This document shows, piece after piece, positions 1,767 to 19,297 of a DNA stretch of 44,509 nt (positions are counted from its first letter, which is position 1; every line of letters begins with the position of its first letter). The notes under the pieces were generated by a model that worked only from the letters and a program-made list of their open reading frames with translations, made no database searches and was not told the DNA's origin. Source of the stretch: Spirochaetales bacterium. GTDB taxonomy: Bacteria; Spirochaetota; Spirochaetia; DSM-2461. The stretch lies in assembly GCA_016936555.1 (NCBI GenBank), contig JAFGXR010000050.1, forward strand, positions 1-44,509, in the 5' to 3' direction. The position numbers were made by a program, and so were the translations under genes.

Positions 1767-1774
1767 TTTTCTGA

Positions 1775-3557: not shown

Positions 3558-3563
3558 AAGGAA

Positions 3564-3591: not shown

Positions 3592-3602
3592 CTATTTGTG
3601 TT

Positions 3603-3625: not shown

Positions 3626-4733
3626 CGGCGGATCTTTTCTGCCAGCAGGACCTTCTGATAACCAGACTTGTTTCCGATACCCCTTCTTCCCTGCAGGGCG
3701 ATGTCCTGGTAATCAATTCCTTTAAAAGAGACAGGGAGCTGCAGATCAGCTGGTTCCGGTTCACTTTGACAGTCGTGAGCGGAGGAGCGGCCATTTCGGC
3801 CATGAAAAGGTCATCGAACCCGCTGACCGACACTTCCTCGGGGACGCGGATATTCTGTTGATGGAGCAGATCATAGATCCGCAGGGCGCAGATATCGTTA
3901 TAACAGAGGATCGCCGTAGCACCCTTATCAATCAATTCTTTCAATTTCAGAGAGTCTTTATTTGATCCCGGAGTAAAATGGAATTCGGAAATTTCCGGTT
4001 TGGCGTTACGGCAGTTTTCCTCCAGCGTGTTTCCAATTACTTTCAGTCTGTTGTCGTAAACCGATGTCATTTCAAATTCATTGGAAAAGGCAAAAATGAA
4101 TTTTTCATGGCCGAGACTGGCTACATAGGCTGAAAGCTGTTCCAGGCCTCCGTTATCCATCATGACAGAGCCTATTCTCCCGGAAAAGTCTTTGTGGATC
4201 GACCTGTTGATCAATACAAGAGGAATATCGTTCTTTTCAAGAAAATCGATATAGCAATCGGGAAGACTACCCTGAACAAGTGTCCCTTTGGATCGCAAAA
4301 GGATATTTTTCGTCTCTTCCGGAAGAACCGTCTCTCTTTTATCATATACCAGAAGGTGGGGTTCCATTCCCTCTTCCTTCATTTCGTGGAGGTAGTTGAG
4401 ATAGAGTTCTTTTCCGTGATAACCCACGGCCGTATCCTCTCCCCTCAGGTATGATGACCGGGCCTTATCGATAAGCATGGGGATTTCAGGACCCGCCAGG
4501 GCGCTCTTCTTTCCGGTCACCAGGGAACCTGATCCCTGGCGTGAGGCGATTATGCCCAATCCCGCCAGATGGGTTGTCGCCTTATTGGCGGTCTGGGGGC
4601 TGACGCCGTATATTTCCGCCAGTCTTCTCACCGTCGGGATCGCTTCCCCCTCTTTCCAGGTCCCTTTGTTGATCTCATCGATAATCAGATCGGCTATTTG
4701 TATATATTTTTTACTGCTCTGTTCCTGATTCAT
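3621..4733 (-). CDS. GntR-family transcriptional regulator with LacI/periplasmic-binding-like sensor
   Basis: The 370-residue protein has an N-terminal GntR winged helix (about residues 8-75; motifs IPTVRRLAEIYGVSPQTANK and RQGSG in the wing) followed by a C-terminal LacI-type sugar-sensing domain (about 95-350), with the family's late signature VSVSGFDDLFMAEMAAPPLT. Related proteins (AraR-like) bind a sugar effector and regulate uptake genes. It is transcribed with or just ahead of the importer genes, and related inverted repeats sit before both. No ribosome site precedes the ATG; TTGACA lies 29 bases upstream, which would put the transcript start at the ATG. Effector unknown; likely a sugar released from the imported oligosaccharide. 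Confidence 0.88.
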   Translation of the reverse strand: MNQEQSSKKYIQIADLIIDEINKGTWKEGEAIPTVRRLAEIYGVSPQTANKATTHLAGLGIIASRQGSGSLVTGKKSALAGPEIPMLIDKARSSYLRGEDTAVGYHGKELYLNYLHEMKEEGMEPHLLVYDKRETVLPEETKNILLRSKGTLVQGSLPDCYIDFLEKNDIPLVLINRSIHKDFSGRIGSVMMDNGGLEQLSAYVASLGHEKFIFAFSNEFEMTSVYDNRLKVIGNTLEENCRNAKPEISEFHFTPGSNKDSLKLKELIDKGATAILCYNDICALRIYDLLHQQNIRVPEEVSVSGFDDLFMAEMAAPPLTTVKVNRNQLICSSLSLLKELITRTSPCREEGVSETSLVIRRSCWQKRSAG

Positions 4734-4739
4734 TCTTAT

Positions 4740-4768
4740 ATGATGGTTTGATTGTTATATTGTGTCAA
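4740..4768 (-). promoter_or_regulatory. promoter of the GntR/LacI-type regulator
   Basis: On the minus strand TTGACA (4768-4763), 17-base spacer, a weak -10 CATCAT (4745-4740), six bases, then the ATG at 4733. The first two T of the -35 box lie inside the operator arm, so a bound regulator would block polymerase. Confidence 0.45.
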
Positions 4769-4789
4769 GAATTATGCAGTACAATTATT
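4767..4789. promoter_or_regulatory. operator for the GntR/LacI-type regulator, autoregulatory copy
   Basis: AAGAATTAT - GCAGT - ACAATTATT, matching 18 of 23 positions of the perfect palindrome at 3603-3625; the right arm is 8/9 identical. It touches the -35 box of the regulator's own promoter, the position expected for negative autoregulation. Confidence 0.6.
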
Positions 4790-4876
4790 GCTTTTGTGAT
4801 GAAGTAAACTTTGAGAAAGTGTTTGTCACAGCCTCCATTAACCCGTATATTAGAGGGGCTTCCCTCAGGAGGGTTT

Positions 4877-5929
4877 ATGGATTTTTCAGACATTCGTTCC
4901 TATCCGGAAAAAATATTCTCCACATACTGGCATAAGGTCATAGAAGATCCCCATTTCAAAGTCCTTCTGGAACACCTGAGCCGTCATCACCTTAACATCA
5001 GGAACATTGTTTCGTCTCTTAAAAGCCATGACCAGTTCAGGAGCCTGATGATCCAGATGGTCGAACTGCTGGTGATGAAGACTGTCGAAGACATTTCCTT
5101 CAGCGGCACGGCGGAGTTGAAGAAACCTGCGGAAAGCGGGTCGATTTTCATCTCCAATCACCGGAGCACCTCCCTGGATCCCATTCTGTTCAATTACATG
5201 CTTCACGGAGAAACCGGCAATACGGCCTATAATGCCGCCGGAGACAACCTCCTCAATACCTCCTGGCTGGGACACCTGATCCGGCTGAACAGGGGATTCA
5301 TAGTCAAACGCAATGTCGGGGATATGGATCAGAAACTGCACGAAGCGGAAAAGCTCTCCCACTATATCCGCTCCCTCGTCCGGAAAGGGGGAAATGTGTG
5401 GATCGCCCAGCGTAACGGCAGAGCCAAAGACGGAGATGACAGAACGGACTCGGCGGTGCTGGCGATGCTCAAGCTATCCCACAAAGAGAAGAGCTGGGAA
5501 GAATTCAGCCGGGAAATACCCCTTGTGCCGGTCAGCATGAGTTATGAAGAGATCCCTCTCGATACCTTAATTGTCCGGGACCATCTGGGAATGACCGATA
5601 CGAATGATTCCCGGAGGGACAGCGGCCAGATCCTGCAGGAAATCGGCGAGACGAAACGGAAGATTCACATCCATATCTCTCCCCGGGTCATCGGCTCGAA
5701 AAGGGCTGAACTGGTAAAGAAGCTGGATGATAGTATCATAAGCGGTACAAAAATCTGGGAATCCAACAACTATGCGGCCCGTCTTCTCCACAGGCTGGAC
5801 TCCGTAAAAGACAAGCCCGTCCGCTGGCTGAAAGAAAAGCTGAGCAGCCAGGATGAGCTTTTGCGGCACGCTTTGATCAAGCTCTATGCGGCGCCTGTCA
5901 TCAATAGGATGAAACTGGATAATCCCTGA
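4877..5929 (+). CDS. PlsC-like glycerolipid acyltransferase (COG0204 type)
   Basis: A 350-residue protein. The acyltransferase block I reads SNHRSTSLDP around residues 94-103, where His and Asp form the catalytic pair; here five residues separate them (HX5D) rather than the usual four. This spacing fits a subgroup of long acyltransferases in spirochaetes and Bacteroidetes that also has the later motif WIAQRNGRAKDGDD (near 175-188) and LNRGFIVKR (near 138-146). No obvious membrane helix. Expected role: transfer of fatty acyl groups to lysophosphatidate or a related glycerolipid at the inner membrane. Start at 4877 is supported by AGGAGGG; a longer frame from 4811 has none. Divergent from the regulator, so the 143-base gap is shared. 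Confidence 0.85.
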   Translation: MDFSDIRSYPEKIFSTYWHKVIEDPHFKVLLEHLSRHHLNIRNIVSSLKSHDQFRSLMIQMVELLVMKTVEDISFSGTAELKKPAESGSIFISNHRSTSLDPILFNYMLHGETGNTAYNAAGDNLLNTSWLGHLIRLNRGFIVKRNVGDMDQKLHEAEKLSHYIRSLVRKGGNVWIAQRNGRAKDGDDRTDSAVLAMLKLSHKEKSWEEFSREIPLVPVSMSYEEIPLDTLIVRDHLGMTDTNDSRRDSGQILQEIGETKRKIHIHISPRVIGSKRAELVKKLDDSIISGTKIWESNNYAARLLHRLDSVKDKPVRWLKEKLSSQDELLRHALIKLYAAPVINRMKLDNP

Positions 5930-6058
5930 TCGAAATAATCGAGCAAGCCGGTATCTTCCTGTAACCGGTATTGTCTCTTTTCTCTGCAAGTCCCTCTCCG
6001 CTTCGGAATGGTCGGAAACGAGTTCCCTGCTCGCCGATGGAACGGAAGGAGGGGGGGC

Positions 6059-6088
6059 TTGAGAGATGCGACCCGTGCCTGCTATTAT
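6059..6088 (+). promoter_or_regulatory. promoter of the DUF402 gene (leaderless type)
   Basis: TTGAGA (6059-6064), 18-base spacer, TATTAT (6083-6088), five bases, then ATG at 6094. It decides the start of the DUF402 gene, for which no ribosome site exists. Confidence 0.55.
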
Positions 6089-6093
6089 TGACC

Positions 6094-6609
6094 ATGATCC
6101 ACCACACGACAAAATATAACAGCGGTACCCACTACCGTTTTGAAACTCGAAAAATCTATGAATCGGAGAAGATTCTTGCCGTCTATACTCCCTGCGATAC
6201 ACCTTTGAAGAGCTATCGGGGTGAGTTCAACACCCATACGCATATCCTGATGTTTTATTTCAGGGACAGGCTCCACAATATCCATATTCACTGGAATCCC
6301 GACTGGTCGCCCCGGATGCATTACGTCAACATCGCTTCGGAAGCCGACTGGAACGGAGAACAGGTTTCCGCTATTGATCTGGATCTCGATCTGATCCGCT
6401 TTTTCGGAAGCGAAGAGATCATTCTCGATGACGAGGAAGAATTTGAAGAGAACAGCAGCCGTTACAGTTATCCCCCTGATCTGATAGTTCGCTGCCGGAG
6501 GGAAGCAGATCAAGTCAGGGAAGAAATGGGTACCCGCCTCGGTATCTGGAGCGATGAGATCTTCAGCTGGCGGCCGGGAGAGAAGCTCCCCCTTCAGAAT
6601 CTACGCTGA
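6094..6609 (+). CDS. DUF402 family protein (FomD/nucleoside-diphosphate hydrolase-like fold)
   Basis: This 171-residue protein matches the DUF402 family, small proteins some of which (for example FomD and the Staphylococcus Ntdp) hydrolyse nucleotide phosphates using acidic residues. The family's acidic run is seen in AIDLDLDLIRFFGSEEIILD (near 87-106), followed by DDEEEFEEN. A longer reading frame begins at 5971, but its extra 41 residues look non-coding, and a promoter ends five bases before the ATG at 6094, so I use that start. An alternative ATG at 6037 overlaps a GGAAGGAGG stretch and cannot be excluded. Converges with the AIM24-like gene with a 14-base gap. Substrate unknown. Confidence 0.75.
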   Translation: MIHHTTKYNSGTHYRFETRKIYESEKILAVYTPCDTPLKSYRGEFNTHTHILMFYFRDRLHNIHIHWNPDWSPRMHYVNIASEADWNGEQVSAIDLDLDLIRFFGSEEIILDDEEEFEENSSRYSYPPDLIVRCRREADQVREEMGTRLGIWSDEIFSWRPGEKLPLQNLR

Positions 6610-6623
6610 TCCCGCCTTTTCAA

Positions 6624-7418
6624 TCAGAAATTATCCCCGTCGAGGAGATTCCCCAGCATACCGAGAGCCGAGCCTTCTCCTTTGCGTTTTCCGCCGGCGG
6701 ACGGGGCATGGCGGATAATTCGGTCGGCGAGCCGCGAAAAGGGCAGGCTCTGGAGATAGACCGTGCCGTGGCCGCTCAGTGTCGCCAGGAAGAGACCTTC
6801 CCCGCCGAAAACCATCGACTTCAGGCTGCCGGTCTGTTCGATCGAATACTCTATCCCGTCGGTAAAGGCCACCAGGCAGCCCGTATCGAGGCGGAGCTTT
6901 TCGCCGCGCAGTTCCTTTTTGATGATGGTTCCTCCGGCATGGAGAAAGGCTTTCCCGTCCCCCTCCAGTTTCTGAAGGATAAAACCTTCCCCTCCGAAGA
7001 AGCCCGTGCCGATTCTCTTATTCAGCGTTATGGATACTTTCGTCCCCAGGGCCGCGCAGAGAAAAGCATCTTTCTGACAGATCAGCCTTCCGCCCATCTG
7101 CCCCATATCCACGGGTATGATCTTCCCCGGATAGGGAGCCGCAAAAGCCACTTTTTTCTTTCCGGAACCGCGGTTGGTAAAATGGGTCATAAAGATGGAC
7201 TCGCCCGTCAGAACCCGCTTTCCCGCGGAGAAGAGTTTTCCCATAATGGAATCGTCTGCTTCCGTCCCGTCTCCCATTTTCGCTTCGAACTGGATTCCCT
7301 CTTCCATCCAGTTCATGGCTCCCGCTTCGGCAATGACCGTTTCCCCCGGATCGAGTTCCACTTCCACAGTCTGCATATCGTCGCCGAATATTTCATAATC
7401 GATTTCATGGCTTGTCAT
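6624..7418 (-). CDS. AIM24/TIGR00266 family protein
   Basis: The 264-residue protein has the glycine-rich, beta-rich pattern of the TIGR00266/AIM24 family: MNWMEEGI near residue 35, [13 protein letters not shown] near 72-84, the repeated blocks [20 protein letters not shown] (about 137-156) and [17 protein letters not shown] (about 202-218). Eukaryotic AIM24 is mitochondrial; bacterial members have no firm biochemical role, and fold as a double-stranded beta helix. The start ATG directly follows the stop codon of the receiver/ATPase gene (TAA at 7419-7421, ATG at 7418), so the two are probably translationally coupled and functionally linked. The C-terminus is a short Gly/Lys-rich tail. Function not inferred. 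Confidence 0.85.
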
Positions 7419-8330
7419 TTATTTCTTCTCCGTTTCTTTCAAAGGCAGTATCACCTCTACTTTATTGCCTTTTCCCCGGAATTCAAGATGATTTTTAAAA
7501 ATCAGCTTCGCCATGGCCACCCCGCGGCCGTGAAGGTTGAAAATGGCGTCGGGATCAATCTTGAGATATTTTTCGTATTCGAAGCCCGGTCCCCTGTCAG
7601 AAATCATGATTTTTAGCGAACCGCCGCTTTTCTCGAAGTCGACCTTTACTTTCTTGCCGAGGTTTTCACGGGCGGAAAGCCGCTGCCGGATCTCTTCGTC
7701 AAAGCGGTCTTCCATAATCAGTTCCTCTTTCATATCGTATCCGATGCCCAGATTGCCGTGCTCTATGGCGTTGAGGAGAAGCTCCGATAAGCCGATGGAA
7801 GTCCTGTCATAATCTGTGACCTGAGTGAAGAAAGAAGCCACTTTCCGCGCCTCTTCCGGTGTCTCCACTTCGATTTCCCCTTTCCTGATAAAATCGGTTA
7901 TACCGTATACAGTCTCTCCGGTGTTGTCCCTGATCGCCTGGAGGTTATGGTAATCGAAAACAGCTTTTTTCAGGATGGTCGTCAGCACTTCGAGGCTGTA
8001 GGGTTTGGTCATGTAGTAGAAGGCACCCGCTTCTATCCCCTCTATAATGCTTTCCTTATCTTTTTTCCCTGTCTGCATGATGACGGGGATGTCGGAATAG
8101 GCTTCCAGCTGCTTTATCTGTTTCAGCAGCTGGATTCCCGTGATGGACGGGAGAACCCAGTCGAGGATTATCGCCGACAGATCTTTGTTCTTCTCCAGCA
8201 GCTCCAGTCCCGTTTCCCCGTCGTTGGCCGTCAGGGCTGTATAACCTTCCATTTCCAGAAAATCTGTCAGTATCGTTACAAGGGTAGGGTCATCATCGAT
8301 GATGAGAATCTTTTTGTCCGGTTGAGGCAT
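7419..8330 (-). CDS. response regulator with C-terminal RsbW-like ATPase domain
   Basis: A 303-residue protein with two parts. Residues 5-122 are a receiver domain (acidic pocket D12-D14, phospho-acceptor D57 in IILDWVLPS, K109 in MTKPYS). Residues about 150-300 form a GHKL ATPase of the anti-sigma kinase type: N-box ELLLNAIEHGNLGIG, G1 box DRGPGF, and a glycine loop LHGRGVAMAK. There is no DNA-binding domain. Such proteins usually control partner switching, by phosphorylating or sequestering an anti-sigma or STAS-type partner, although no STAS gene is near. The start at 8330 has GAAGGAG six bases upstream; the frame extends to 8381 without a ribosome site. First gene of a two-gene unit with the AIM24-like protein. 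Confidence 0.85.
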   Translation of the reverse strand: MPQPDKKILIIDDDPTLVTILTDFLEMEGYTALTANDGETGLELLEKNKDLSAIILDWVLPSITGIQLLKQIKQLEAYSDIPVIMQTGKKDKESIIEGIEAGAFYYMTKPYSLEVLTTILKKAVFDYHNLQAIRDNTGETVYGITDFIRKGEIEVETPEEARKVASFFTQVTDYDRTSIGLSELLLNAIEHGNLGIGYDMKEELIMEDRFDEEIRQRLSARENLGKKVKVDFEKSGGSLKIMISDRGPGFEYEKYLKIDPDAIFNLHGRGVAMAKLIFKNHLEFRGKGNKVEVILPLKETEKK

Positions 8331-8425
8331 CTTGGCTCCTTCAGGCTGTTCAGCGTTGCGGTAAAACGAAGAGATTTCCATTTAATTGTAGTAGGGAGTC
8401 CGGCAGCTTTCAAATTTTAAGAGTC

Positions 8426-8455
8426 TTGATGAAAACTCATCCTCTGATTTACAAT
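8426..8455 (+). promoter_or_regulatory. promoter of the cysteine-rich PAS gene (leaderless type)
   Basis: TTGATG (8426-8431), 18-base spacer, TACAAT (8450-8455), seven bases, then ATG at 8463. No Shine-Dalgarno sequence lies between. Confidence 0.6.
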
Positions 8456-8462
8456 AGGCCCT

Positions 8463-8966
8463 ATGAAAGTTGAATGCGGATGGTGCGGAATTTCAATGGG
8501 TGAGAGACCGGGACCTGAAAATGAAGTTTCTCACGGCATGTGTTCCGACTGCGCTTTCCGGATGCTCTCCAGGCAGGAAGGGTCTATCAATTCCTTTCTC
8601 GATAAAATGGATTATCCCGTATTGCTTGTCGATTCCGATGTCAATCTGAAATACGAAAACAGGATGCTTCGCGAGCTGACCGGGAAAAATGAGCAGCAGC
8701 TCGAAGAGCGGAAAGGGGGAGAGGTTTTTGAATGCGTCAACTGGCGTAAACCCGGCGGATGCGGAAAGACGATCCACTGCAGCGGCTGTACTCTCCGCAA
8801 CACCGTCGAGAAAACCTATCTCTCGGGAAAACCTTCGACCGATGTTAAAACCACTCTTAAAGTTGTGACGGAGAATGAGGAAAAGCAGATCAGCAGTTTC
8901 ATTTCCACACAGAAGGTCGGGGATTATGTGCTGCTCTCGGTCCGAAAATTCAAAGTGGACGGTTAA
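8463..8966 (+). CDS. cysteine-rich PAS-domain protein
   Basis: A 167-residue soluble protein. The N-terminus carries a zinc-ribbon-like arrangement, CGWC (5-8) and CSDC (27-30). Residues about 42-160 resemble a PAS domain (YPVLLVDSDVNLKYENRML). Inside it is a second cysteine group, FECVNWRKPGGCGKTIHCSG followed by C, four cysteines in about 20 residues, which could hold a metal or iron-sulfur centre or react to redox state. There is no output domain, so it probably signals by binding a partner. The last 17 bases overlap the 3' end of the convergent DUF1295 gene. No partner can be named; the neighbouring receiver/ATPase protein is a candidate by position only. Confidence 0.75.
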   Translation: MKVECGWCGISMGERPGPENEVSHGMCSDCAFRMLSRQEGSINSFLDKMDYPVLLVDSDVNLKYENRMLRELTGKNEQQLEERKGGEVFECVNWRKPGGCGKTIHCSGCTLRNTVEKTYLSGKPSTDVKTTLKVVTENEEKQISSFISTQKVGDYVLLSVRKFKVDG

Positions 8967-9855
8967 ACCATCTTTTCCGCGGCAGCGGGACCAGAATGGA
9001 TACTTTTCCGCGGATTTCCCCGTAACCTTTTTTTCTCTCGAGCTGACGTTTTTCCATCATAGGTATGGAGACGAAAGCAAACTGGCACAACATGATTACC
9101 GGGGCGAAGCCTGTCCAGTATTTTCCGGGAGCCGCCGCCAGGGCGAAGAAATAGAGGCTGAACCAGAAGAGGATTTCACCGAAATAATTGGGATGCCGGC
9201 TGAATTTCCATAAACCCCTGCTTACCGGTTTATCCTTTTCCGCCGATTCCCTGTGCCGGGATAACTGAAAATCGCTGATCCATTCCATGGCAATGGCTCC
9301 GAGAGCCGCACCTGAGGCAATAAAATCCATAATATTCAGAGAGACCGGTCCCGCCGTAATCGCGAAATAGGCGGGAATCATGGATAGAAAAACCAGAACC
9401 GTCGGGAAGATATGAAGACCGAGGAAACTGACCGGCCAGTATAACCGCCCGGTGCTGCCCCTGAGAGAGACAAACCGCCAGTCCTCATGGTTCAGTCCCG
9501 GCCAGGAAAGAGCCCAGTTCGCCGTCAGACGCAACCCCCATAGCCATGTTACAGCCAGAATTAAAATCGGGCGGACTGTGACTCCCGCAGCATTTTGAGC
9601 CGCCATTATCCAGACAGAAAAAATGACCGGAGGCGCGGCGCTCCAGTAGGCATCGTAACAGCTGGAATTATCGGATATGAGACTGAAGATATAGATGGCC
9701 GAGGCAGCCGCCAGATCGGCCAGAAATGCCCTGGTCAGCAGAGAAGAGGTTTCCGGAAGAAAACGCCAGGTCAGCCAGGCTGCGGCGAAGGCGGTTCCGT
9801 AGGCCATCAGAATATAGAGAAAAGAGAGAGTTCGGGAGTTCTTCAGGGTTTTCAT
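8950..9855 (-). CDS. DUF1295 membrane protein (steroid 5-alpha-reductase/isoprenylcysteine methyltransferase-like)
   Basis: A 301-residue, multi-helix membrane protein. It carries the DUF1295 landmarks: SCYDAYWS near 65-72, RLTANWALSWPGLNHEDWRF near 109-128, and the C-terminal SRGLWKFSRHPNYFGEILFW (about 212-231) with the R-H-P-N-Y core that binds the cofactor in the steroid 5-alpha-reductase and ICMT superfamily. Family members reduce double bonds in lipids with NADPH or methylate isoprenyl groups; the precise activity is unknown. Its start has AAGGA upstream and lies two bases after the stop of the molybdopterin oxidoreductase gene, so the two form an operon. A second reductase of related chemistry (ERG4/ERG24 type) lies at the head of the same strand run. 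Confidence 0.85.
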   Translation of the reverse strand: MKTLKNSRTLSFLYILMAYGTAFAAAWLTWRFLPETSSLLTRAFLADLAAASAIYIFSLISDNSSCYDAYWSAAPPVIFSVWIMAAQNAAGVTVRPILILAVTWLWGLRLTANWALSWPGLNHEDWRFVSLRGSTGRLYWPVSFLGLHIFPTVLVFLSMIPAYFAITAGPVSLNIMDFIASGAALGAIAMEWISDFQLSRHRESAEKDKPVSRGLWKFSRHPNYFGEILFWFSLYFFALAAAPGKYWTGFAPVIMLCQFAFVSIPMMEKRQLERKKGYGEIRGKVSILVPLPRKRWFNRPL

Positions 9856-9857
9856 AT

Positions 9858-12056
9858 TTATTCCTTTGTTTCCGCGGGCCGGACATGGATGATAATGCCG
9901 GACAGGTGAGCCATAAGTGAGAGCCTCTCCACATGGCCGGTTCCCGACGGCGTGAGATAATTGACATTGGCTCCTCCTGTCCGGGAAGCCCTGGACAGAC
10001 CGTCGGCGCCCTGATGTCCCCAGCCGAAGGGTATCGCTGCGGCTCCGGGCATCATGTCCTCCGTAAACCGGACGGGAAGAGTTATGGAGCCTCTCTCGTT
10101 GAACACGTCCGCTTCTCTCGATACGCCGCTCTCTATCTCTTCCTCTGTAAATCCCGCTTTTGATCCGTCCAGAGGATTGAGGTAGATATAGTTGCTGTTG
10201 TTTTTCCCTTCAACCAGGGAAGGGGCATTCTGCATAAAGGTGTTGTGGGTCAGAAGCTGGCGCATATTAACGAGCTTGAGGGCATCGGCATGGTCTTTTT
10301 CCCATTGCCATTCCCCTTCCAGCTTGTTCATCGCCCTGATCATCGGTTCCGGGGCCAGATCGACCAGACCGTCTTCGGTGTAAACCCTTTTGCCCAGAAA
10401 GGAACCGGCTCCGTACTGGGGCAGAAGGATGCCGTCGGGATGGTGTCTCATCTTTCTGATTCCCTTTTTCCGGGAGAGCTTTAAGACGATATCGAGGATC
10501 TGTTCGTGGGAGAAGGCCATACCTTTTTCCATAAGGGGGATCTTTTTCAGAAAGCGTCTCAGGCTGAGCCAGTAGTGAATGGCCCGGGAGCCGAAGAACT
10601 TTCCGCCGCTGTAGCGGCACAGCTCCTGGTAGATCCACAATTCGTCTTTTGCCTCTCCCAACGGCTCGATGACTCTGTCCGTATACTGATAGAAGCGCCG
10701 GTGGGTTATGCCCATGAGCGAGTGAAAGAGATAGTTGATATCGGCGTGCTCGAAGGGAGTTATGCCCGGCAGAATGTAGTGGGAGAGATTGCCGGTCATA
10801 TTCCGGAAGATATCGACAGATACAAGCAGTTCAAGGCTTCTAAACGCTTTTTCCGTTTTCGCTGTATCGGGCAGCGTCAGAAGTGGATTCCCCGCGGCGA
10901 CGATCAGGGCTTTGATCTGCCTTCCGCCGGGCGTGAGGATTTCATCGGCCAGAAGCGAACCGGGAAACAGATCGTTCACCGCTTTGAACTCTCCGATCCG
11001 GCTGCTTTTATCGGTCATCATGATACGGTTCTTCGCACCCATTTTCGGGAAGTCCACAAGCCCCTTGTTGACCGTAGTCCCTCCCTTTCTGTCCAGGTTT
11101 CCCGTCATGGCGTTTATGGCTTCGCTGACCCAGAAGGTCAGCGCGCCGTTCCGTCCCATATTGATTCCCGTGGAGCAGTAGATGGAGGCGCCGTCGGCCT
11201 CCGCGAAGGATCGGGCCATATCGCGGATCGATTCCTCGGATATCCCCGACACTTCCGCTGCTTTTTCAGGAGTCCATTCTCTGACGGCGGCCTCGAAACG
11301 GTCGAAGTTCTTCATATAGCGGGAGACCTTTTTGTGATCCACCGCGCCGATTCTGATCAGTTCGCCCGCCAGAGCCAGAAGAAAGAAAATATCCGTGTCG
11401 GGACGGATGGGGACATGCTCTCCTCCCGCCTTGACTGTTTCGGTTTTCCGGGGGTTGATGTTGATGATCCGGCATCCCCTTTCCGAAGCTTCCTTCAGTT
11501 TGTTCATCACATCGGGAACGCCCCGGAAGGACATTTTCGTGGCATAGGGATTGGCGCCCATCATGATAAAGCACCCGGCATTTTCAAAATCCGGCAGGGG
11601 CTGCGTCATGGGGAATCCGTACATATGCTGGGCTGTAATGAATTTATTGGAACAGTCCTGGGTCGCCGAACTGTAGGCGCTGTCCGATCCCAGGCCGATC
11701 AGGAGAGCCTGGGCGAAAAAGGGGTGGAGGAAGCCGAACCCCGCTCCGTTTCCCACGTAGAGCGCTACCGAATCGGGGCCGTGCTCTTTCTGTATCCTGC
11801 GGATTTCCGAGCCGATCTCTCTCAGCGCTTTATCCCATCCCAGGGACTCCCATTCCGTTCCGCTGCGTTTCTGCGGAGAGAGGATTCTGTCGGGAGAATG
11901 AACGATCTCGTGGTACTTCAGACCTTTTCTGCAGGCGAAACCCCTGGATACGACATGGTCCGGATTGGGCCTGAGCGAGGTGATTCTGTTTTCTTCCACT
12001 GTGGCTATTAATCCGCACCCGACATCGCAGATACGGCAGAATGTTTTCTTTTCCAT
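9858..12056 (-). CDS. molybdopterin-dependent oxidoreductase, catalytic subunit with one [4Fe-4S] cluster
   Basis: A 732-residue member of the DMSO-reductase superfamily. The N-terminal cluster motif is C7-X2-C10-X3-C14 and C42 in GFACRKG. A cysteine at 135 in ATQDCSNKF sits where the protein ligand of molybdenum or tungsten is expected. The pterin-binding segments follow (MGANPYATKMSF near 172; TGINMGRNGALTFW near 303), with a C-terminal dinucleotide-binding domain (about 610-730). There is no Tat signal, so it is cytoplasmic. No partner iron-sulfur or membrane subunit is encoded next to it. The substrate is unknown; the adjacent DUF1295 and ERG-type reductases suggest a lipid or isoprenoid substrate. 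AGGA lies seven bases before the ATG. Confidence 0.88.
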   Translation of the reverse strand: MEKKTFCRICDVGCGLIATVEENRITSLRPNPDHVVSRGFACRKGLKYHEIVHSPDRILSPQKRSGTEWESLGWDKALREIGSEIRRIQKEHGPDSVALYVGNGAGFGFLHPFFAQALLIGLGSDSAYSSATQDCSNKFITAQHMYGFPMTQPLPDFENAGCFIMMGANPYATKMSFRGVPDVMNKLKEASERGCRIININPRKTETVKAGGEHVPIRPDTDIFFLLALAGELIRIGAVDHKKVSRYMKNFDRFEAAVREWTPEKAAEVSGISEESIRDMARSFAEADGASIYCSTGINMGRNGALTFWVSEAINAMTGNLDRKGGTTVNKGLVDFPKMGAKNRIMMTDKSSRIGEFKAVNDLFPGSLLADEILTPGGRQIKALIVAAGNPLLTLPDTAKTEKAFRSLELLVSVDIFRNMTGNLSHYILPGITPFEHADINYLFHSLMGITHRRFYQYTDRVIEPLGEAKDELWIYQELCRYSGGKFFGSRAIHYWLSLRRFLKKIPLMEKGMAFSHEQILDIVLKLSRKKGIRKMRHHPDGILLPQYGAGSFLGKRVYTEDGLVDLAPEPMIRAMNKLEGEWQWEKDHADALKLVNMRQLLTHNTFMQNAPSLVEGKNNSNYIYLNPLDGSKAGFTEEEIESGVSREADVFNERGSITLPVRFTEDMMPGAAAIPFGWGHQGADGLSRASRTGGANVNYLTPSGTGHVERLSLMAHLSGIIIHVRPAETKE

Positions 12057-12080
12057 ATAATTGTCCTGAATCGATGTATT

Positions 12081-13841
12081 TTATTTTTCTGTAATGGCTT
12101 TATTCAGTAGACGGCTCAATTCCGCTGTCAAAAAAGGTTTCTTTAAAATGGCAAACAGCCCTTTATCGAGTAGGGCATCCACCTTTTTATCGCTGGTAAA
12201 GCCCGACGCTATAATGACCGGGCATAAGGGGGCCGCCTCATGAATCCTCTGAAAAACTTCCGTACCGTCAATATCGGGCATTATCATATCCAGGACGACA
12301 GCTTTAATTTTACCGCGGTTTTCTTCGAAGAGTCTGATCCCCTCGGTACCGTTCTGAGCTGTAAGTACATCATAGCCCATCTCCTCGAGAAGGGATGTGC
12401 CGGTGATCCGTATCATCTCCTCGTCATCGACCAGCAGAATGGTGCCCGAGCCCCTGACCGGCTCATCCCTCTCTTCTTCAGGCCTGAGGGGCGTCTCTCC
12501 GGAGCTGGGCAGGTAGATATGAAAGACCGTGCCTTTTCCCACTTCGCTTTCCACGGAAATGTGGCCTTTATGATCTTTAACGGTTCCGTAAACCGCCGAT
12601 AAGCCGAGGCCTGCTCCCTTCTCCCGGTCTCTGGTCGAAAAGAAGGGGTCGAAAATTCTGGGAAGAGTCTCCCGGGGGATTCCCGCTCCCGTATCGCTGA
12701 AATCGATCTGAACATATTCTCCCGGCTTCAGGTGGATCTTCCCCTTACCGCTCTCTTCCGCCGACAGAGTTACATTGGAAGTTGTAATCAGTATCTCGCC
12801 GCCCTTTTCCATGGCCTGGGAGGAGTTTATGGCGAGATTGACGAAAATATTCTGCAGCATCCCCGGCTCACCTTTGATCATGGGGTTTTCCGCCAGGTTC
12901 TTAAAGTGGATCTTCACTTTTTTGTCGATGGTTTTCCAGAGGATCATAATGGAGTCGCTGATCAGGTTATGGATATTGAGGGATTTAGATATGGTGAAGT
13001 TTTTCTGGGAGAAGGTGAGGAGCTTGCCGGTCAGTTCATCGGCATTCTGCACAGCCTGGATAATCAGATCCACATACTTCAGGCCCTTTTCATTCAGTCC
13101 GCAGGCCGGCTTTTTCAACAGCTGGGCCGCTCCGATTATACCCCCGAGGGTGTTGTTAAAGTCATGGGCGATGCCTCCGGCGAGCTGTCCGACCGCTTCC
13201 ATTTTCTGAGTCTGGCTCAGCTGCTCCTGGAGTTCCAGTTTTTCCGCTTCGCTCCTGGTCATATGACCGATCATTTCGACAATGTTGACAAGGAACTCGA
13301 GAGCCGTTCTGACCTTTTCTTCCGTGAAAACAGGAACCATTTCATAGGCTTTCAGGTACCCTTCTACATCTTCAATTCCCAGTTCCGCGGCTTGTTTTAC
13401 GAAGTATTCCCGGGGTTTGACATCTCCTTCGAGAAAAAACTGGCCCGTAAAGAAATTCCCCACATGCCTCTCCCCGACTTTGACCGGTATGGCGGCATCG
13501 CAGAGGCCGTTTTTACAGGAATAAATGGTGTATTCCTGATTGGATTCGAGCTTGCTTCCGATATAAATATCGCTTTCGGTACATCTTTGAAGCGCTTTCC
13601 CGTTGACCCGGTGGTAATGGGTGCATATCCGCTGCCACCCCGTGGCCACTATGACGGTGCCGTCCAGTTCCAGCAGGGCGGTGACGAAACCCGTCAGCTT
13701 CGTAAACTGCTCGCAGATGGACGTTATGAAGTCTATATCGATTATTTCCGAGAGATTGTAGTTCCGCTCTTCCAGCTCCTCTATTCGGGCTGAATTGTAA
13801 ATCTTCCTGGTCATTTCCTTTATAGCCTTCTCTATAAACAT
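12081..13841 (-). CDS. PocR-domain hybrid sensor histidine kinase
   Basis: A 586-residue cytosolic sensor kinase. Residues about 30-195 form a PocR-type ligand-binding domain with four cysteines (C73, C87, C109, C114) in ICTHYHRVNG, LQRCTE and SCKNGLCDAA. A short helix leads to the histidine-kinase core: phospho-acceptor H226 in GGIAHDFNN, N-box near 331-342 (NIFVNLAINSSQ), G1 DTGAGIP (383-389) and G2 GAGLGLS. A receiver domain ends the protein (D518 in VVLDMIMPD). PocR domains in other bacteria are linked to sensing small hydrocarbon-derived molecules. No DNA-binding response regulator is adjacent. Start 13841 is tentative: an ATG at 13811 has AAGGA closer by. It lies 27 bases after the sterol-reductase-like gene and upstream of the oxidoreductase gene. 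Confidence 0.85.
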   Translation of the reverse strand: MFIEKAIKEMTRKIYNSARIEELEERNYNLSEIIDIDFITSICEQFTKLTGFVTALLELDGTVIVATGWQRICTHYHRVNGKALQRCTESDIYIGSKLESNQEYTIYSCKNGLCDAAIPVKVGERHVGNFFTGQFFLEGDVKPREYFVKQAAELGIEDVEGYLKAYEMVPVFTEEKVRTALEFLVNIVEMIGHMTRSEAEKLELQEQLSQTQKMEAVGQLAGGIAHDFNNTLGGIIGAAQLLKKPACGLNEKGLKYVDLIIQAVQNADELTGKLLTFSQKNFTISKSLNIHNLISDSIMILWKTIDKKVKIHFKNLAENPMIKGEPGMLQNIFVNLAINSSQAMEKGGEILITTSNVTLSAEESGKGKIHLKPGEYVQIDFSDTGAGIPRETLPRIFDPFFSTRDREKGAGLGLSAVYGTVKDHKGHISVESEVGKGTVFHIYLPSSGETPLRPEEERDEPVRGSGTILLVDDEEMIRITGTSLLEEMGYDVLTAQNGTEGIRLFEENRGKIKAVVLDMIMPDIDGTEVFQRIHEAAPLCPVIIASGFTSDKKVDALLDKGLFAILKKPFLTAELSRLLNKAITEK

Positions 13842-13868
13842 AAGATATGGAAGGCGGTTTTTAAAGTT

Positions 13869-14951
13869 CTAATAGATATAAGGTATGATCCTGTACTTGA
13901 CTTTGCTCTCATACTCTTCCCAGAGGGGGCCGTACTTAAGGGCACACCTTTTATCATCGGCCATCTGCCTGGGGAAGAGAAGCGCCACATAATAGAGGGG
14001 ATAGAGCCAGGGCAGAGGATTCGCCGGGTAGCCGACACTGAGTATGATCCCTGAAGCCATAAGAATTTCCCCAAGGTAATTGATATGGCGGCTCAGACCC
14101 CAGAAGCCGTTTACAAGTAGCGTTTTTTGTCCGTCGCTCAATGTTTCCGGTTTGATTCCCAGAAAGGATTTGTCCGGATGTGTCTTGAAGTAGAATTTCT
14201 GCATATTGGCTCCTCTGGCCAGGCTCCAGCCGGCGAAGAAAAGCAGCACATAGAGAATTCGCAGAATCATATGGGTCCCCGGATCGGGCAGATCAGCCGT
14301 CGCCCAGAGAGCGATAGGGTAGAAATAGGGATAAAAGGCCAGGCAGCCCCATCCCAGCTTGAATCCGGTCCGTTCGGCGAAGAAGTCGTAGGTGTAGAGA
14401 TGGACCTCTTCAAAAGTCAGATACTCGAAGACGAACCAGGAGATCAGGGCGGCGCTGATGAAAACTCCCGGCGAGGCCTGAGTTCCGTATTTCATGTAGT
14501 GATGGGCCGCGGCGCTGAGGGCATTCAATTCGAGCATGATGGCGCCGATCATATAAAGCCACATTTTGGCATCAACCCGTTTTTTGAAAAACTGGGGATT
14601 CTTCAGACGGCCGAAGTAGAACTCGGCAAAGAAGGACTTGCCCGTGGAAGGTCCTGACAGAACGATATAAAGGGAGAACGCCAGACCCATAACCAGGGCT
14701 CCGGCCAGGCTGTATAAACGGACTGTGTAGAGCCAGCTGAACAGTTCCCTGTTCAGAAGCCCGGCGACTATCCAGAGGAGTACCGAAATGACCAGGACTC
14801 TTCTTCCGTTGAGGTGGTATTTGAGTTTTTCTCCCGTTATCTCATCGCTGACATATCCCGTGACCTTCCGTCGGGGTACTATCAGATGGAGCCCTGTGAT
14901 AATCAGGTATATCCCCATCGGGGTCAGAAATCCGGCAATCTGTTTCATCAT
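13869..14951 (-). CDS. ERG4/ERG24-type sterol reductase homologue
   Basis: A 360-residue membrane protein with about eight to ten hydrophobic helices. Both signatures of the ERG4/ERG24 family are visible: DFFAERTGFKLGWG (189-202) followed by FYPYFYP, and LLVNGFWGLSRHINYLGE (278-295). The C-terminus reads CALKYGPLWEEY then VKYRIIPYIY, again family-typical. Eukaryotic members reduce sterol C14 or C24 double bonds with NADPH; in bacteria the acceptor may be a hopanoid, carotenoid or an external sterol. No squalene cyclase or oxidosqualene gene is in the window. There is no ribosome site; a TATTCT box ends six bases before the ATG, so it may be leaderless. First gene of the run with the PocR kinase, the oxidoreductase and DUF1295. 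A second ATG (14948) is an alternative start. Confidence 0.9.
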   Translation of the reverse strand: MMKQIAGFLTPMGIYLIITGLHLIVPRRKVTGYVSDEITGEKLKYHLNGRRVLVISVLLWIVAGLLNRELFSWLYTVRLYSLAGALVMGLAFSLYIVLSGPSTGKSFFAEFYFGRLKNPQFFKKRVDAKMWLYMIGAIMLELNALSAAAHHYMKYGTQASPGVFISAALISWFVFEYLTFEEVHLYTYDFFAERTGFKLGWGCLAFYPYFYPIALWATADLPDPGTHMILRILYVLLFFAGWSLARGANMQKFYFKTHPDKSFLGIKPETLSDGQKTLLVNGFWGLSRHINYLGEILMASGIILSVGYPANPLPWLYPLYYVALLFPRQMADDKRCALKYGPLWEEYESKVKYRIIPYIY

Positions 14952-14957
14952 AGGACC

Positions 14958-14963
14958 AGAATA
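14958..14963 (-). promoter_or_regulatory. -10 box of the sterol-reductase-like gene (leaderless type)
   Basis: TATTCT on the minus strand with six bases (GGTCCT) to the ATG at 14951. The -35 region is weak (TGAAA-type, about 17 bases upstream). Confidence 0.45.
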
Positions 14964-15054
14964 CTATGAAACGGTTTATTTTTCATCAGTTTTCAATTCC
15001 CCTTGAATTCCCTCAATTTTGTTCCTAACATTTATTCATAAGCGAAAAGATGGA

Positions 15055-16788
15055 ATGAAAGAAGAAATCCAAAGGTTAAAAGTTAAAATTGCGGCCATTT
15101 TATATGTCAGCCTCTTCATATGCCTTATTTCCAGTGAACTGATCAATTCATTTCTTAACAACAGATTCGATCTTCTCGGATTCAGCCGGACGGCCAGGCT
15201 CGCCGCCGCTTTCAAACCCACTGTCCTCGTTGTTTACATCATCTTCACATCTACTCTGTATTCCATCATTCTCCGGTACCTCAAGTCGCTTTTCTATTAT
15301 CATACGGGCCGGTTTTCTCCCGGAGAAAATAAAGAGCTGGTTTACAGCCGGGCCCGTAAAGCCGCCGTGGCCATGCCGAAAATGGTCATCATCTTTCAGA
15401 TAACCGTCTGGATCATAGGGACGACGGCCTATTACGCCTTGAAGAAATGGCAGGCTGAAAGCGGCATACCCTATGCTTTCGGCTTGATGCTGAAGATTTC
15501 AAGCGGAGCGCTCGGAGCGCTGTATGTTGTTTTCTTTATCAATCTCATCCTGATGGATTTGAAAAAGAAGCTGAACATGACATCGATACGTCCGGCGGAG
15601 ATCGATAGTTTCGCTAAAAAGCGCGACATGATCGCCATAATCGCCGCGGCATTTTATCTCGTTGTCCAGAGTTCCTATATCGCCTGGTACTATTCCCAGA
15701 AAAGCGAACCTGTAACACTGGGGGAATTCGCCCTGTCGGTCCTGCCTCCGATGATTTTCCTTATGTTAATGAGCATCGGACCCAACCTCATTTCCAGAAT
15801 CGAATTCCGGCTCCATGTGAAGGAAGTGCTGAAAGAGATGGAAATTATCAGCAACCAGAAGGAAATCGGAGAGATCAATCCCATCTATCTGACGAATTTC
15901 GATGAGCTGGGCGAGCTGGCCGATGTGACGAACCGTGTCGTGGAGCGTTTTTCAGGGATCATGCAGAACATAAGCGGAGCCATCAATCACCTGGCCGATT
16001 CGGCGGGAAATCTGAAGAAGGATTCCGATGCCAACGCCCGGGCGACCAACGACCAGGCGACAGCCGTAGCTGAAGTCGTCGCTACCATGGAGGATTCGAA
16101 CCGCCTCAGCCGGTATATGGGTGAGATCGCCGGGGAAGTGGAAGGCCATGCAAAGGAAAACCTGGAGAAAGTCGGCTCCGGTATCGAGGGGATTAAAAAA
16201 TACCTCGATACCATGGAAAAACTGAAGGAATCCAATACGCGTTCCATCAATTTCGTCTTTTCCCTCAACGAAAACATCAAAATGATTATGGATGTGAGCT
16301 TTATCATCAAACAGATCGCCGACCAGGTTAAGATCATTGCCTTCAATGCCGAACTGGAAGCCGCCGCCGCGGGGGAGGCGGGGAAAAACTTTGAAATCGT
16401 CGCTTCGGAAGTGCGCCGCCTGGCCGATAACACAGTAACTGCCGCCTCGGAAATCCGTGAGAAAATCAATTATATCGAGAAGGAGAGCCGCAAGCTCTAC
16501 GATGCCTCGCAGGAGACGACCGACCTGATCGATACGAGCTGGGACCTTTCGCAGCAGACCCAGATCTCTTTTTCCGCCATTCAGGACACGTCGAACGCCA
16601 CGTCTCTCTCCGCCAAATCGATCAGCGACAATATCAAAATGCAGATAGGCGGTTTCGAACAGATCCTCGAGACGATGAAAGAGATCTCCCGCGCCTCGAG
16701 AAGCGTCTCCGAAGGGATAAAAACAACTGCCGTGACGACAACCGGTCTGGAGGAGCTGATCGCTTCCCTGGAGAAGCTGATAAACTGA
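15055..16788 (+). CDS. methyl-accepting chemotaxis protein with six-helix membrane sensor
   Basis: A 577-residue receptor. The N-terminal ~235 residues hold six hydrophobic helices (about 9-30, 52-75, 111-131, 148-172, 197-218 and 231-255) with short loops, so no large periplasmic domain; ligand sensing may be in the membrane. A HAMP-like link is followed by a coiled-coil signalling region (about 310-577). The hairpin tip reads IADQVKIIAFNAELEAAAAG instead of the usual [18 protein letters not shown], a diverged but recognisable form that still should contact CheA and CheW. ATG at 15055 is chosen over an upstream TTG frame start at 15019. The ribosome site is weak. Converges with the gene at 16811. 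Confidence 0.85.
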   Translation: MKEEIQRLKVKIAAILYVSLFICLISSELINSFLNNRFDLLGFSRTARLAAAFKPTVLVVYIIFTSTLYSIILRYLKSLFYYHTGRFSPGENKELVYSRARKAAVAMPKMVIIFQITVWIIGTTAYYALKKWQAESGIPYAFGLMLKISSGALGALYVVFFINLILMDLKKKLNMTSIRPAEIDSFAKKRDMIAIIAAAFYLVVQSSYIAWYYSQKSEPVTLGEFALSVLPPMIFLMLMSIGPNLISRIEFRLHVKEVLKEMEIISNQKEIGEINPIYLTNFDELGELADVTNRVVERFSGIMQNISGAINHLADSAGNLKKDSDANARATNDQATAVAEVVATMEDSNRLSRYMGEIAGEVEGHAKENLEKVGSGIEGIKKYLDTMEKLKESNTRSINFVFSLNENIKMIMDVSFIIKQIADQVKIIAFNAELEAAAAGEAGKNFEIVASEVRRLADNTVTAASEIREKINYIEKESRKLYDASQETTDLIDTSWDLSQQTQISFSAIQDTSNATSLSAKSISDNIKMQIGGFEQILETMKEISRASRSVSEGIKTTAVTTTGLEELIASLEKLIN

Positions 16789-16810
16789 TTAATTCAAATC
16801 CAGGGGAAAC

Positions 16811-17464
16811 TCATTTGAAGGGATAAAAGCTCAGAAGATTGTTATGGCGGTACAGTTCCGGCTTTCCCAATTCGAGAGAGATGTTACAGGCCGACAGGGA
16901 TTCCATAATCTCTCCGGCTTTCTCCACCCATTCCGCCCGGGCTCCGGGGGTCATGGAAACAATCTGGTAAGCCAGAGTTATGCCGTAGGCCTGCTGAGAG
17001 GGATCTTTGAGAAAATCGGGAATCCCGGTCAGTTTAAGTTCTTCTTTTCTATCGGCAGGCCGCAGAAGTAGAACAAATTCACCATCGGCCCGCAATTCCG
17101 TTTTCCACGGGACCATAAGGAAGTTTCCGGGAAGATCACCGGGAATAAATGGCTTTATTGTGTCGTCGAATTTTCTCAAAAGCATATGGAGCGACGACGA
17201 GGGCGGGAAGGTGAAGTTCTGAGAATGAGCCGAGGACCGCAGCTTTGTCTGCAGGTCCAGAAGCATTTTGAGAGAAGGGGATCCCGGCACTGTCCGGCAC
17301 ATCAGGCGGATTCCCGGGAACCGCCTCGGCGATCCGTCCCGGTGAAAACAGGATCCCGCCAGGGGGGTATAGCCTGAATCGGTTTCACCATGACTGACCT
17401 TCTCGGCCATCTGTTTCTGTGCCAGTTCGCGGGTTGAGCGGTTGCATTCTTTCGGTGATAACAC
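16811..17464 (-). CDS. DUF1868-like protein (2H phosphoesterase superfamily)
   Basis: A 217-residue protein that resembles DUF1868, a branch of the 2H (two-histidine) phosphoesterase superfamily. The order of blocks agrees: FHRDGSPRRFPGIRLMC (about 40-56), then TFPPSSSLHMLL (about 85-96), then YGITLAYQIVSM, and a short hydrophobic end. The family's first catalytic motif is normally H-x-T or H-x-S; here it is H-M-L, so catalysis may be impaired, or the match is imprecise. GTG start at 17464 is supported by AAGGAG nine bases upstream. It is divergent from the diguanylate cyclase gene at 17554. Function is unknown; a cyclic phosphodiester substrate would suit the second-messenger neighbours but is only a guess. 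Confidence 0.6.
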   Translation of the reverse strand: MLSPKECNRSTRELAQKQMAEKVSHGETDSGYTPLAGSCFHRDGSPRRFPGIRLMCRTVPGSPSLKMLLDLQTKLRSSAHSQNFTFPPSSSLHMLLRKFDDTIKPFIPGDLPGNFLMVPWKTELRADGEFVLLLRPADRKEELKLTGIPDFLKDPSQQAYGITLAYQIVSMTPGARAEWVEKAGEIMESLSACNISLELGKPELYRHNNLLSFYPFK

Positions 17465-17553
17465 TATTCTGGACTCCTTAAGAATTATTCCTGTTAAATC
17501 TACTGAATTGAATGGTAACAGTAAAGCCGGAATACTCCATATAAGAGGAATGC

Positions 17554-19152
17554 GTGAAAGTGTTAAGAAACAGTATCAGATGGGAGATTTTCTTTAACAG
17601 CATACTGACCGCACTCATCATCCTTTTTATTTTCAGTCTTATCTTCTCCCGCATGCTCCGTCAGGCGGAACTGGACAAAGCCTCGGAGATTATACGCGAG
17701 AGAAATCTGGCTCTTAACTTCTATGTCGATGGTTTTATGTCCAAAATAAATGATTCCATTGAAATCCTGGCAGCGGACCTTCAGGTTCAGAACGGTCCTT
17801 ATCTCGATCCCGCGGAGACCCGGGCCCTGCTGGAACGGTATAAATCCTACAGCTGGACAAACCGGGATATCGCCTATATCTATTCAGCCTATGAAAACGG
17901 ATTGCTTCTTATCAATGATTACGTTGAGCCTGAGGGCTTCAACCCTCTTGAACGGCCCTGGTATATTGCGGCTCAGGAGAAAGCCCCCCACACCTCAATC
18001 GGTGTGCCCTACAGAGAAATCAAAGATAACCAGTGGCTGGTTTCCTCGTCCCGCGCCTTCCCCGGGGGTGTGGTCGTTATTGATGCTTCCCTCGATAAAA
18101 TAGCCGCGCTGCTCGACGAAAGAGCTTCGAGATATGATACGGCCTACAGCCTTATACTCAGCCCCGACTGGAATATACTTATTCACAACAACCATCAGTT
18201 TCTCGGACAATCGATAGCTTCATATATGGATGAGCAGGAGATCTCCGGAAGGGATGAAGGGCGGCTGGAATACAGTCTGGACGGAGTGGATAAAATCGCC
18301 TATTTCAGCCGCAGCGAAATCGCCGACTGGTATATTATGACAGTGGTCAATCTCGATGAGATTCTGTCGCCGCTGCCCAGGATCATTATCCCCCGAATCA
18401 TTCTCATCGCCCTGATTGCCGTTTTTCTCGGACTTATACAGAGCTATTATCTGAGAATCCGGTTTTTCACCCCGATTCAGAACCTTTACAGACATGTGAC
18501 GGATATAATCAACGGAACTGCCGAACCGGAGGAGGAATACGATTATCCCTCCAATGAAATTGGAGTCATTGCTGCAAAGCTGTCAGGCCTTGCGGAAAAA
18601 GAGCTCTACACTCTGTCGCAGGAACTGAAAAAAACCAATATGCTTCTCGAGGAGAAAAACCGGGAACTGGAAATTCTCTCGGCAATCGATAAGCTGAGCG
18701 GACTCTACAACAGACGGCAGATAGATGAGGAACTGGAAAAAATCCATCAGATGTCGAGCCGGTACGGCCGGGGATTTGCCGTTCTTCTTCTCGATCTCGA
18801 TCATTTCAAAGCCATAAATGATAATCACGGACATGCCGCGGGTGATGCTGTCATTAGGGATGTCGGAGACATATTAAGAAGATATCTGCGGCCTACCGAT
18901 ATTGCCGGACGGTGGGGCGGTGAGGAGTTTATTGTTATCAGCCCCGAATGCGATGAACACGGACTGGCCGCTCTGGGGAATAAAATCCTTAAGCTTGTGG
19001 CTGGTTTCCGGTTCTCCGCGGGATTCCATATCACGACCAGCATCGGCGGTGCTCTATCGGGCCGGGATGAATCGCTGGAGGAACTTCTTCTCCGGGCTGA
19101 TCAGAATCTCTATTCGGCCAAGAGAGAAGGCCGCAACCGCTTTATTATGTAA
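17554..19152 (+). CDS. membrane diguanylate cyclase with Cache-type sensor
   Basis: A 532-residue GGDEF protein that makes cyclic di-GMP from two GTP. One helix near 12-33, a periplasmic dCache-like sensor (about 36-270, with the FNPLERPWYIAAQ motif typical of dCache), a second helix near 277-297, a HAMP-like and coiled-coil stretch, then GGDEF (about 365-532). The active site is intact as RWGGEEF (around 454-458) and the inhibitory I-site RxxD (RPTD) is present five residues earlier, so product feedback is expected. GTG start, supported by AGAGGA. Another diguanylate cyclase of similar design lies at 23011. Confidence 0.92.
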   Translation: MKVLRNSIRWEIFFNSILTALIILFIFSLIFSRMLRQAELDKASEIIRERNLALNFYVDGFMSKINDSIEILAADLQVQNGPYLDPAETRALLERYKSYSWTNRDIAYIYSAYENGLLLINDYVEPEGFNPLERPWYIAAQEKAPHTSIGVPYREIKDNQWLVSSSRAFPGGVVVIDASLDKIAALLDERASRYDTAYSLILSPDWNILIHNNHQFLGQSIASYMDEQEISGRDEGRLEYSLDGVDKIAYFSRSEIADWYIMTVVNLDEILSPLPRIIIPRIILIALIAVFLGLIQSYYLRIRFFTPIQNLYRHVTDIINGTAEPEEEYDYPSNEIGVIAAKLSGLAEKELYTLSQELKKTNMLLEEKNRELEILSAIDKLSGLYNRRQIDEELEKIHQMSSRYGRGFAVLLLDLDHFKAINDNHGHAAGDAVIRDVGDILRRYLRPTDIAGRWGGEEFIVISPECDEHGLAALGNKILKLVAGFRFSAGFHITTSIGGALSGRDESLEELLLRADQNLYSAKREGRNRFIM

Positions 19153-19162
19153 AGTCCGGTTT

Positions 19163-19177
19163 TCCGCCTCCGGCGGA
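19163..19177 (+). terminator. weak hairpin after the diguanylate cyclase gene
   Basis: TCCGCC - TCC - GGCGGA, directly after the stop codon, followed by ATTTCC rather than a strong T-run. The 157-base gap up to the cyclase gene is GC-rich in its first half (19160-19240) with several short inverted repeats and looks like a decayed intergenic repeat; nothing coding is seen. Terminator function is uncertain. Confidence 0.3.
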
Positions 19178-19297
19178 TTTCCTTCCGCTCCGGCTCACGT
19201 ATGCCGAGGCGGTCGCTTCTATGGCTCGCTGAACGGGTATTTGCAAACCTTTATGAACTTTGTTGATAATTGTAGCTGATAAATCACCGGTATCGGA

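Follow-up and report, generated by a model that had tools for sequence, protein, structure and literature searches.

A reduced ERG4/24 reductase, PocR kinase, Mo/W enzyme and DUF1295 gene cluster in a spirochaete, possibly for oxygen-independent remodelling of an acquired lipid

Introduction

Reductases of the ERG4/24 family are usually read as enzymes of eukaryotes or of sterol-making bacteria. In one bacterial member, the delta-14 sterol reductase MaSR1 (PDB 4QUV), catalysis is predicted to depend on Tyr241 and Asp363, of which Tyr241 is the proposed proton donor (PMC12489058). ERG4/24-type reductases also occur in Coxiella, a bacterium without sterol synthesis, where the orphan sterol reductase Stmp1/CBU1206 provides a precedent for action on foreign sterols (PMC8787468). 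Both this enzyme and CBU1158 are orphans of eukaryote-like type in a bacterium that lives inside cells, whereas the reductase described here falls in a bacterial clade of its own and is coupled to an SDR in its relatives. Two further families encoded at our locus have described relatives. One is that of acetylene hydratase and the FdhF-type enzymes; for acetylene hydratase we take the residues that matter to be Asp13 and the cysteine ligand of the metal. The other includes the steroid 5-alpha-reductases PbSRD5A and SRD5A2, which are marked by a QEY motif (PMC7815742).

Here we describe a locus of an uncultured spirochaete that encodes relatives of all three kinds of protein. "The window" denotes the whole 44,509-nucleotide stretch of DNA that was analyzed. 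It comes from a 4.7 Mb assembly that is 95% complete (G000); the other genomes are likewise given by number.

Results

A tight cluster of four genes

Read from position 14951 to 8950, the minus strand of the window encodes an ERG4/24 protein, a PocR kinase, a Mo/W oxidoreductase (hereafter Mo) and a DUF1295 protein, with intergenic gaps of 27, 24 and 2 bp by ORF reading (Table 1). A preliminary description had proposed a tight, one-strand cluster of four genes, and the ORFs, gaps and Pfam domains agree with it. As it stated, two of the products are reductase-type membrane proteins, placed in the sterol/steroid reductase superfamily by Pfam, the 4quv match, residues and fold, and the Mo/W enzyme is by its domains a single-subunit, one-cluster protein without partner, with no signal peptide seen. 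All of the PocR (1.4e-44), HisKA, HATPase_c and REC domains were found in the kinase by Pfam. The gene that follows DUF1295, encoding REC and HATPase_c_2 domains, may extend the cluster; in the sister species G002 it lies 86 bp downstream of DUF1295. A scan for promoters and terminators across 8300-15200 gave signals that were not above those of shuffled sequence. On the plus strand, positions 8463-8966 encode a small protein that contains Cys pairs and a stretch resembling PAS but matches no Pfam family; 17 bp of its ORF overlap the 3′ end of DUF1295, and G002 has no counterpart of it.

Table 1. Features of the cluster and its surroundings in the window.
Feature	Position	Strand	Length	Basis and remarks
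ERG4/ERG24-type membrane reductase, divergent clade 1	13869..14951	-	360 aa	Pfam, PDB 4quv match, residue table
PocR-HisKA-HATPase_c-REC hybrid sensor kinase	12081..13841	-	586 aa	Pfam
Mo/W-bisMGD oxidoreductase, one [4Fe-4S] cluster	9858..12056	-	732 aa	Pfam
DUF1295 membrane reductase-fold protein, RHPNYFGE motif	8950..9855	-	301 aa	Pfam, AF2 model
REC + HATPase_c_2 protein, 3′ of DUF1295 on same strand	7419..8381	-		Pfam; also 3′ of DUF1295 in G002
Scar of 614-aa gene, 71% identical	19151..19243	-	31 aa	tblastn E 3e-8

Gene order, decay and selection in a sister species

In G002, a sister species of the same genus, the order is 614-aa gene, SDR, ERG, Mo and DUF1295, between flanks that are syntenic with the window at 166-8381 and from 19310 onward. 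The shared proteins are 84% (ERG), 88% (Mo) and 62% (DUF1295) identical. dN/dS for these three genes is 0.06-0.15, with dS near saturation, and from this comparison the three genes are judged to be under purifying selection. Because the order is kept in G002 between syntenic flanks and dN/dS is low, ERG-Mo-DUF1295 exceeds a chance adjacency. The conservation of gene order, by which the preliminary description was to be checked, was therefore found in part: ERG-Mo-DUF1295 recurs in one sister species, but the kinase is missing there, and the four-gene set including the kinase was absent from every other genome searched. What is conserved more widely, in three families, is another pair, SDR-ERG.

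The ERG-Mo gap of G002, which has no kinase gene, is 132 bp long, and a stretch of 84 bp in it matches window positions 12628-12545 with 72.6% identity (blastn E 1.6e-8). These positions map inside the HATPase domain of the kinase, and the in-frame reading of the stretch is REKGTGLALSSVYGIEIDHKGHITVESA. The scar implies that the common ancestor most likely carried the kinase between ERG and Mo and that the gene then decayed in G002; on account of this HATPase remnant, the idea that the kinase had only recently been inserted in the window lineage was rejected. As G002 has all three enzymes beside its decayed remnant, the kinase is predicted to be dispensable, an optional regulator. The earlier proposal that it senses the ligand of the pathway is unsupported for the same reason, and is weakened further by the presence of PocR proteins in nine of the ten genomes checked, several of them without the cluster.

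Losses on the window side were also evident. The 614-aa gene lies upstream of SDR in G002, and its scar in the window is the trace left by the rearrangement in which the cluster lost its SDR side. An SDR remnant was sought in the window and none was found; the closest protein of the window genome to SDR is only 29% identical to it. The scar and the lack of a close SDR together indicate that the window lineage has lost both the 614-aa gene and SDR. Where G002 has these two genes, the window carries MCP, 2H-phosphodiesterase-like and GGDEF genes (15019-19152). From the G002 order and the kinase scar, the ancestral cluster was most likely SDR-ERG-kinase-Mo-DUF1295.

An SDR gene is coupled to clade-1 ERG4/24 genes

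The searches covered 148 relatives and samples of 393 and 395 genomes, some of the relatives being fragmented MAGs. They yielded clade-1 ERG genes in five genomes, the window genome, G002, G003 (a Spirochaetaceae MAG of the same genus), G449 and G515, which span three families of the class. In all four besides the window genome an SDR gene lies directly upstream of ERG (in G003 as shown by tblastn), and the ERG start overlaps the SDR stop in a 4-bp ATGA. The SDRs are 52-59% identical to that of G002, match adh_short and keep, by eye, the glycine-rich and YxxxK motifs. On this genomic evidence the conserved unit is judged to be SDR with clade-1 ERG4/24, rather than the four-gene set, and SDR to be the core partner of the sterol-reductase-like enzyme, lost in the window species. 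Neither Mo nor DUF1295 adjoins ERG in G449 and G515, and in G003 the ERG-then-Mo order is absent, helicase-like genes preceding Mo.

The ERG4/24 protein has an altered active site

The window ERG matches PF01222 over its full length (residues 19-360; 150.8 bits against a cut-off of 27, E 6.7e-44) and aligns full length to MaSR1 with 28% identity (E 1.8e-34). Seven NADPH-site residues of MaSR1 (N316, K319, W352, H357, N359, R395 and D399) are identical in it, R323 is replaced by Lys, and Asp257 is kept in clade 1. In contrast to MaSR1, Phe173 stands at the position of Tyr241 and Glu295 at that of Asp363, so that the catalytic pair of a canonical delta-14 sterol reductase (MaSR1/ERG24) is lacking. 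The same Phe and Glu are present in all four aligned clade-1 genes; clade 2 has Tyr and Asp. The window ERG also differs from MaSR1 in that its host has no sterol pathway and its clade is coupled to SDR in relatives. Since clade 1 lacks Tyr241 and is only 28% identical to MaSR1, a sterol is to be seen as a candidate substrate for this clade and not as an established one. The replacement of Tyr241 by Phe predicts another proton donor or a ketone-activated substrate, which would fit the SDR partner.

Clade 2 (G019, G017, G078, G236, G186 and one of the two G240 genes) is ~50% identical to MaSR1 and keeps both residues. Its genes adjoin an EXPERA/EBP gene in G019, G017, G236 and G186; an EBP gene is found also in G000 and G002. 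In G240 an SDR gene is followed 18 bp on by an EXPERA/EBP gene (L166:4795-6165). NCBIfam models gave no match to either ERG or DUF1295. A bacterial 8,14-sterol reductase reported in 2026 (PMC13277303) was considered as a relative and set aside, being an NTF2-fold protein of another family. An ERG4/24 homologue 32% identical to that of the window is encoded on plasmid p2 of Planktothrix agardhii (L103, 1-14743), together with a squalene synthase family protein, several P450s, Rieske proteins, an SDR and an emopamil-binding protein; by its gene content this looks like a cluster for a triterpenoid or sterol-like metabolite in a cyanobacterium.

DUF1295 has the predicted fold of steroid 5-alpha-reductases

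The DUF1295 protein matches its Pfam family with E 9.7e-45 and by sequence has no match in the PDB at E 0.1. Its AF2 model (pLDDT 91.8) gave VIA Z scores of 15.4 with MaSR1, 12.4 with PbSRD5A, 12.1 with ICMT and 10.7 with SRD5A2, and aligned to PbSRD5A (7c83) over 213 residues with an rmsd of 4.2, which assigns it to the SRD5A fold. It shares the N..GE motif with PbSRD5A and SRD5A2 but differs from them in the QEY site, which is missing, as the QE dipeptide is absent throughout the 301 residues. The superfamily of DUF1295 also includes the ICMT methyltransferases; the fold is shared with ICMT, and the Pfam score for that family is below the cut-off. Relatives 45% identical to DUF1295 are fused to EXPERA/EBP in G018 and G020 (L082:2001-3389 and L083:8397-9779), a reductase-isomerase-like arrangement. 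A literature search joining DUF1295 with steroids found nothing relevant.

The Mo/W enzyme and its loose link to ERG4/24

The Mo protein has all three Pfam domains of the bisMGD family (Molybdop_Fe4S4, Molybdopterin and Molydop_binding), a single N-terminal cluster motif, CxxCxxxC, and no visible signal sequence. It resembles acetylene hydratase and the FdhF-type enzymes in being a single subunit of ~730 aa with one cluster. Asp11, directly after the second cluster Cys, is possibly comparable to Asp13 of acetylene hydratase. It differs from both in falling below the cut-offs of all curated NCBIfam equivalogs (formate dehydrogenase, NasC, PhsA and others), with a best score of 230.7 bits against 666 for Fdh-alpha, and in having its candidate metal ligand in a DC motif whose Asp is conserved across the wider family. 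Asp134 is conserved in nearly all aligned relatives from spirochaetes, sphingomonads, Deinococcus and actinobacteria; in the same alignment Cys135 is limited to the spirochaete group. When a 46% identical relative was aligned to thiosulfate reductase and acetylene hydratase, its Cys fell on the metal-ligand Cys, and when the window protein was aligned to F420 formate dehydrogenase, its Asp fell on the ligand position. Cys135 and the adjacent Asp134 are both candidates for the metal ligand.

Among the 148 relatives the Mo subfamily (at least 59% identity) is found in G000, G002, G003 and G019, each of which also gives a strong ERG4/24 match; G186 and G236, both chosen by their ERG, hold it at 46-47%. 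At 45% identity or above it was found only in genomes with an ERG4/24 gene. At the genus level both of the two Mo genera fall within the three ERG genera of 75, for which the probability by chance is ~0.001, uncorrected for kinship. These counts suggest that Mo is loosely linked to ERG by co-occurrence, without adjacency. A contig search with the Mo protein gave the G003 contig as its sole match. The Mo relative of G019 (L077:5605-8400) carries a C-terminal MobA-like nucleotidyltransferase, so that enzyme and cofactor maturation are joined.

Precursor genes for sterols and hopanoids

No SQHop_cyclase turned up in the ten relevant genomes. Squalene synthase was found in one of them, G019, and in no genome of the genus (G000-G003); controls were positive. 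The lack of sterol and hopanoid synthesis genes, noted earlier for the window, holds genome-wide in this 95% complete assembly. The genus thus seems to have no capacity for sterol or hopanoid synthesis by known routes. As it has neither squalene synthase nor a squalene/oxidosqualene cyclase, the substrate is most likely taken from the surroundings.

Discussion

Our preferred explanation, which we hold tentatively, is that the window cluster is what remains of an ancestral SDR-ERG4/24-PocR kinase-Mo-DUF1295 cluster, and that it may serve to saturate or remodel, with NADPH and without O2, a sterol-like or isoprenoid lipid acquired from outside. It builds on gene content and order, SDR-ERG coupling, the scars, NADPH-site conservation, the predicted DUF1295 fold and the absence of two precursor families; from these we infer the substrate class, the order of reactions, the role of the Mo enzyme and the reductive direction. 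Clade-1 ERG4/24 would be the core of the cluster, an NADPH-dependent membrane double-bond reductase, with DUF1295 as another membrane reductase from its superfamily. Both would pass hydride from NADPH to double bonds of a membrane-embedded polycyclic or isoprenoid lipid, probably a sterol-like or other isoprenoid lipid from the surroundings. The SDR partner would interconvert hydroxyl and keto groups, making or removing a ketone close to the double bond, and the Mo/W enzyme may contribute a redox or hydration reaction that needs no O2. The window species would have lost the SDR step or would perform it with another SDR. Remodelling, detoxification and use of the lipid as an electron sink are candidate purposes. 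The EXPERA/EBP pairings, DUF1295-EBP fusions and SDR-EBP pair indicate that the same enzyme theme is recombined in relatives. Points that speak against our explanation are the Phe at the Tyr241 position and the low identity to MaSR1, the missing QE pair and the ICMT members of the superfamily in the case of DUF1295, the lack of Mo and DUF1295 next to ERG in G449 and G515, and the separate location of Mo in G003, G019, G186 and G236. Of the anaerobic lipid-modifying pathway first proposed, the O2-independent lipid theme is supported, and ligand sensing by the PocR kinase is unsupported.

Other explanations are taken here in falling order of probability. SDR-ERG may be a unit of its own, with Mo and DUF1295 as neighbours that share no pathway with it. 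The pair stands alone in G449 and G515, and Mo lies away from ERG in G003, G019, G186 and G236. We nevertheless consider this unlikely, as the G000/G002 order was kept despite a changed upstream flank and kinase, and the Mo subfamily co-occurs with ERG4/24.

Fatty-acyl chemistry, with SDR as a ketoacyl reductase, ERG and DUF1295 as enoyl reductases and an unusual acyl chain as the product, would resemble eukaryotic very-long-chain fatty acid elongation, in which KCR and TECR are the ketoacyl and enoyl reductases. TECR belongs to the same steroid-reductase superfamily, many 3-oxoacyl-ACP reductases are among the nearest solved relatives of SDR, and the sterol-reductase Tyr is missing from clade 1. 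In Deinococcus QL22 and Mycobacterium branderi, acyl-CoA genes adjoin the homologue of Mo, and the gene next to Mo in G019 encodes an alpha/beta hydrolase. This too is improbable in our view: the window ERG matches ERG4/24 and not Steroid_dh, the cluster holds no condensing enzyme or acyl carrier gene, and related genomes join the same families with EXPERA/EBP.

Doubtful as well is the saturation of polyprenols, quinones or carotenoids, in which the reductases would act on the isoprenoid chains of the cell itself. It would explain the absence of sterol genes; polyprenyl phosphates are, to our knowledge, made by all bacteria, and SRD5A3, of the same superfamily, reduces polyprenol. Yet in bacteria the usual enzymes for saturating isoprenoid chains are flavoprotein geranylgeranyl reductases, and the sporadic occurrence of clade 1, in five of the genomes covered, is unlike that of an essential isoprenoid step.

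Lower still we place a specific form of our preferred explanation, a dedicated O2-independent SDR-reductase-Mo-reductase module by which spirochaetes of anoxic habitats would saturate environmental sterols or similar triterpenoids. De novo synthesis of sterols or hopanoids by the host, which the family names by themselves would suggest, is highly improbable and was rejected, as neither the cyclase nor squalene synthase was found in the genus.

This separate bacterial ERG4/24 clade has an altered active site and, in three families of spirochaetes that are apparently unable to make sterols, is coupled to an SDR; this suggests an unrecognised lipid chemistry. Even in the gut, several enzymes of the conversion of cholesterol to coprostanol were still unassigned (PMC8468837). 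If the substrate is an environmental sterol, the cluster would provide candidate genes for anaerobic sterol reduction and, were the dedicated module described above real, for microbial sterol-to-stanol conversion outside the gut.
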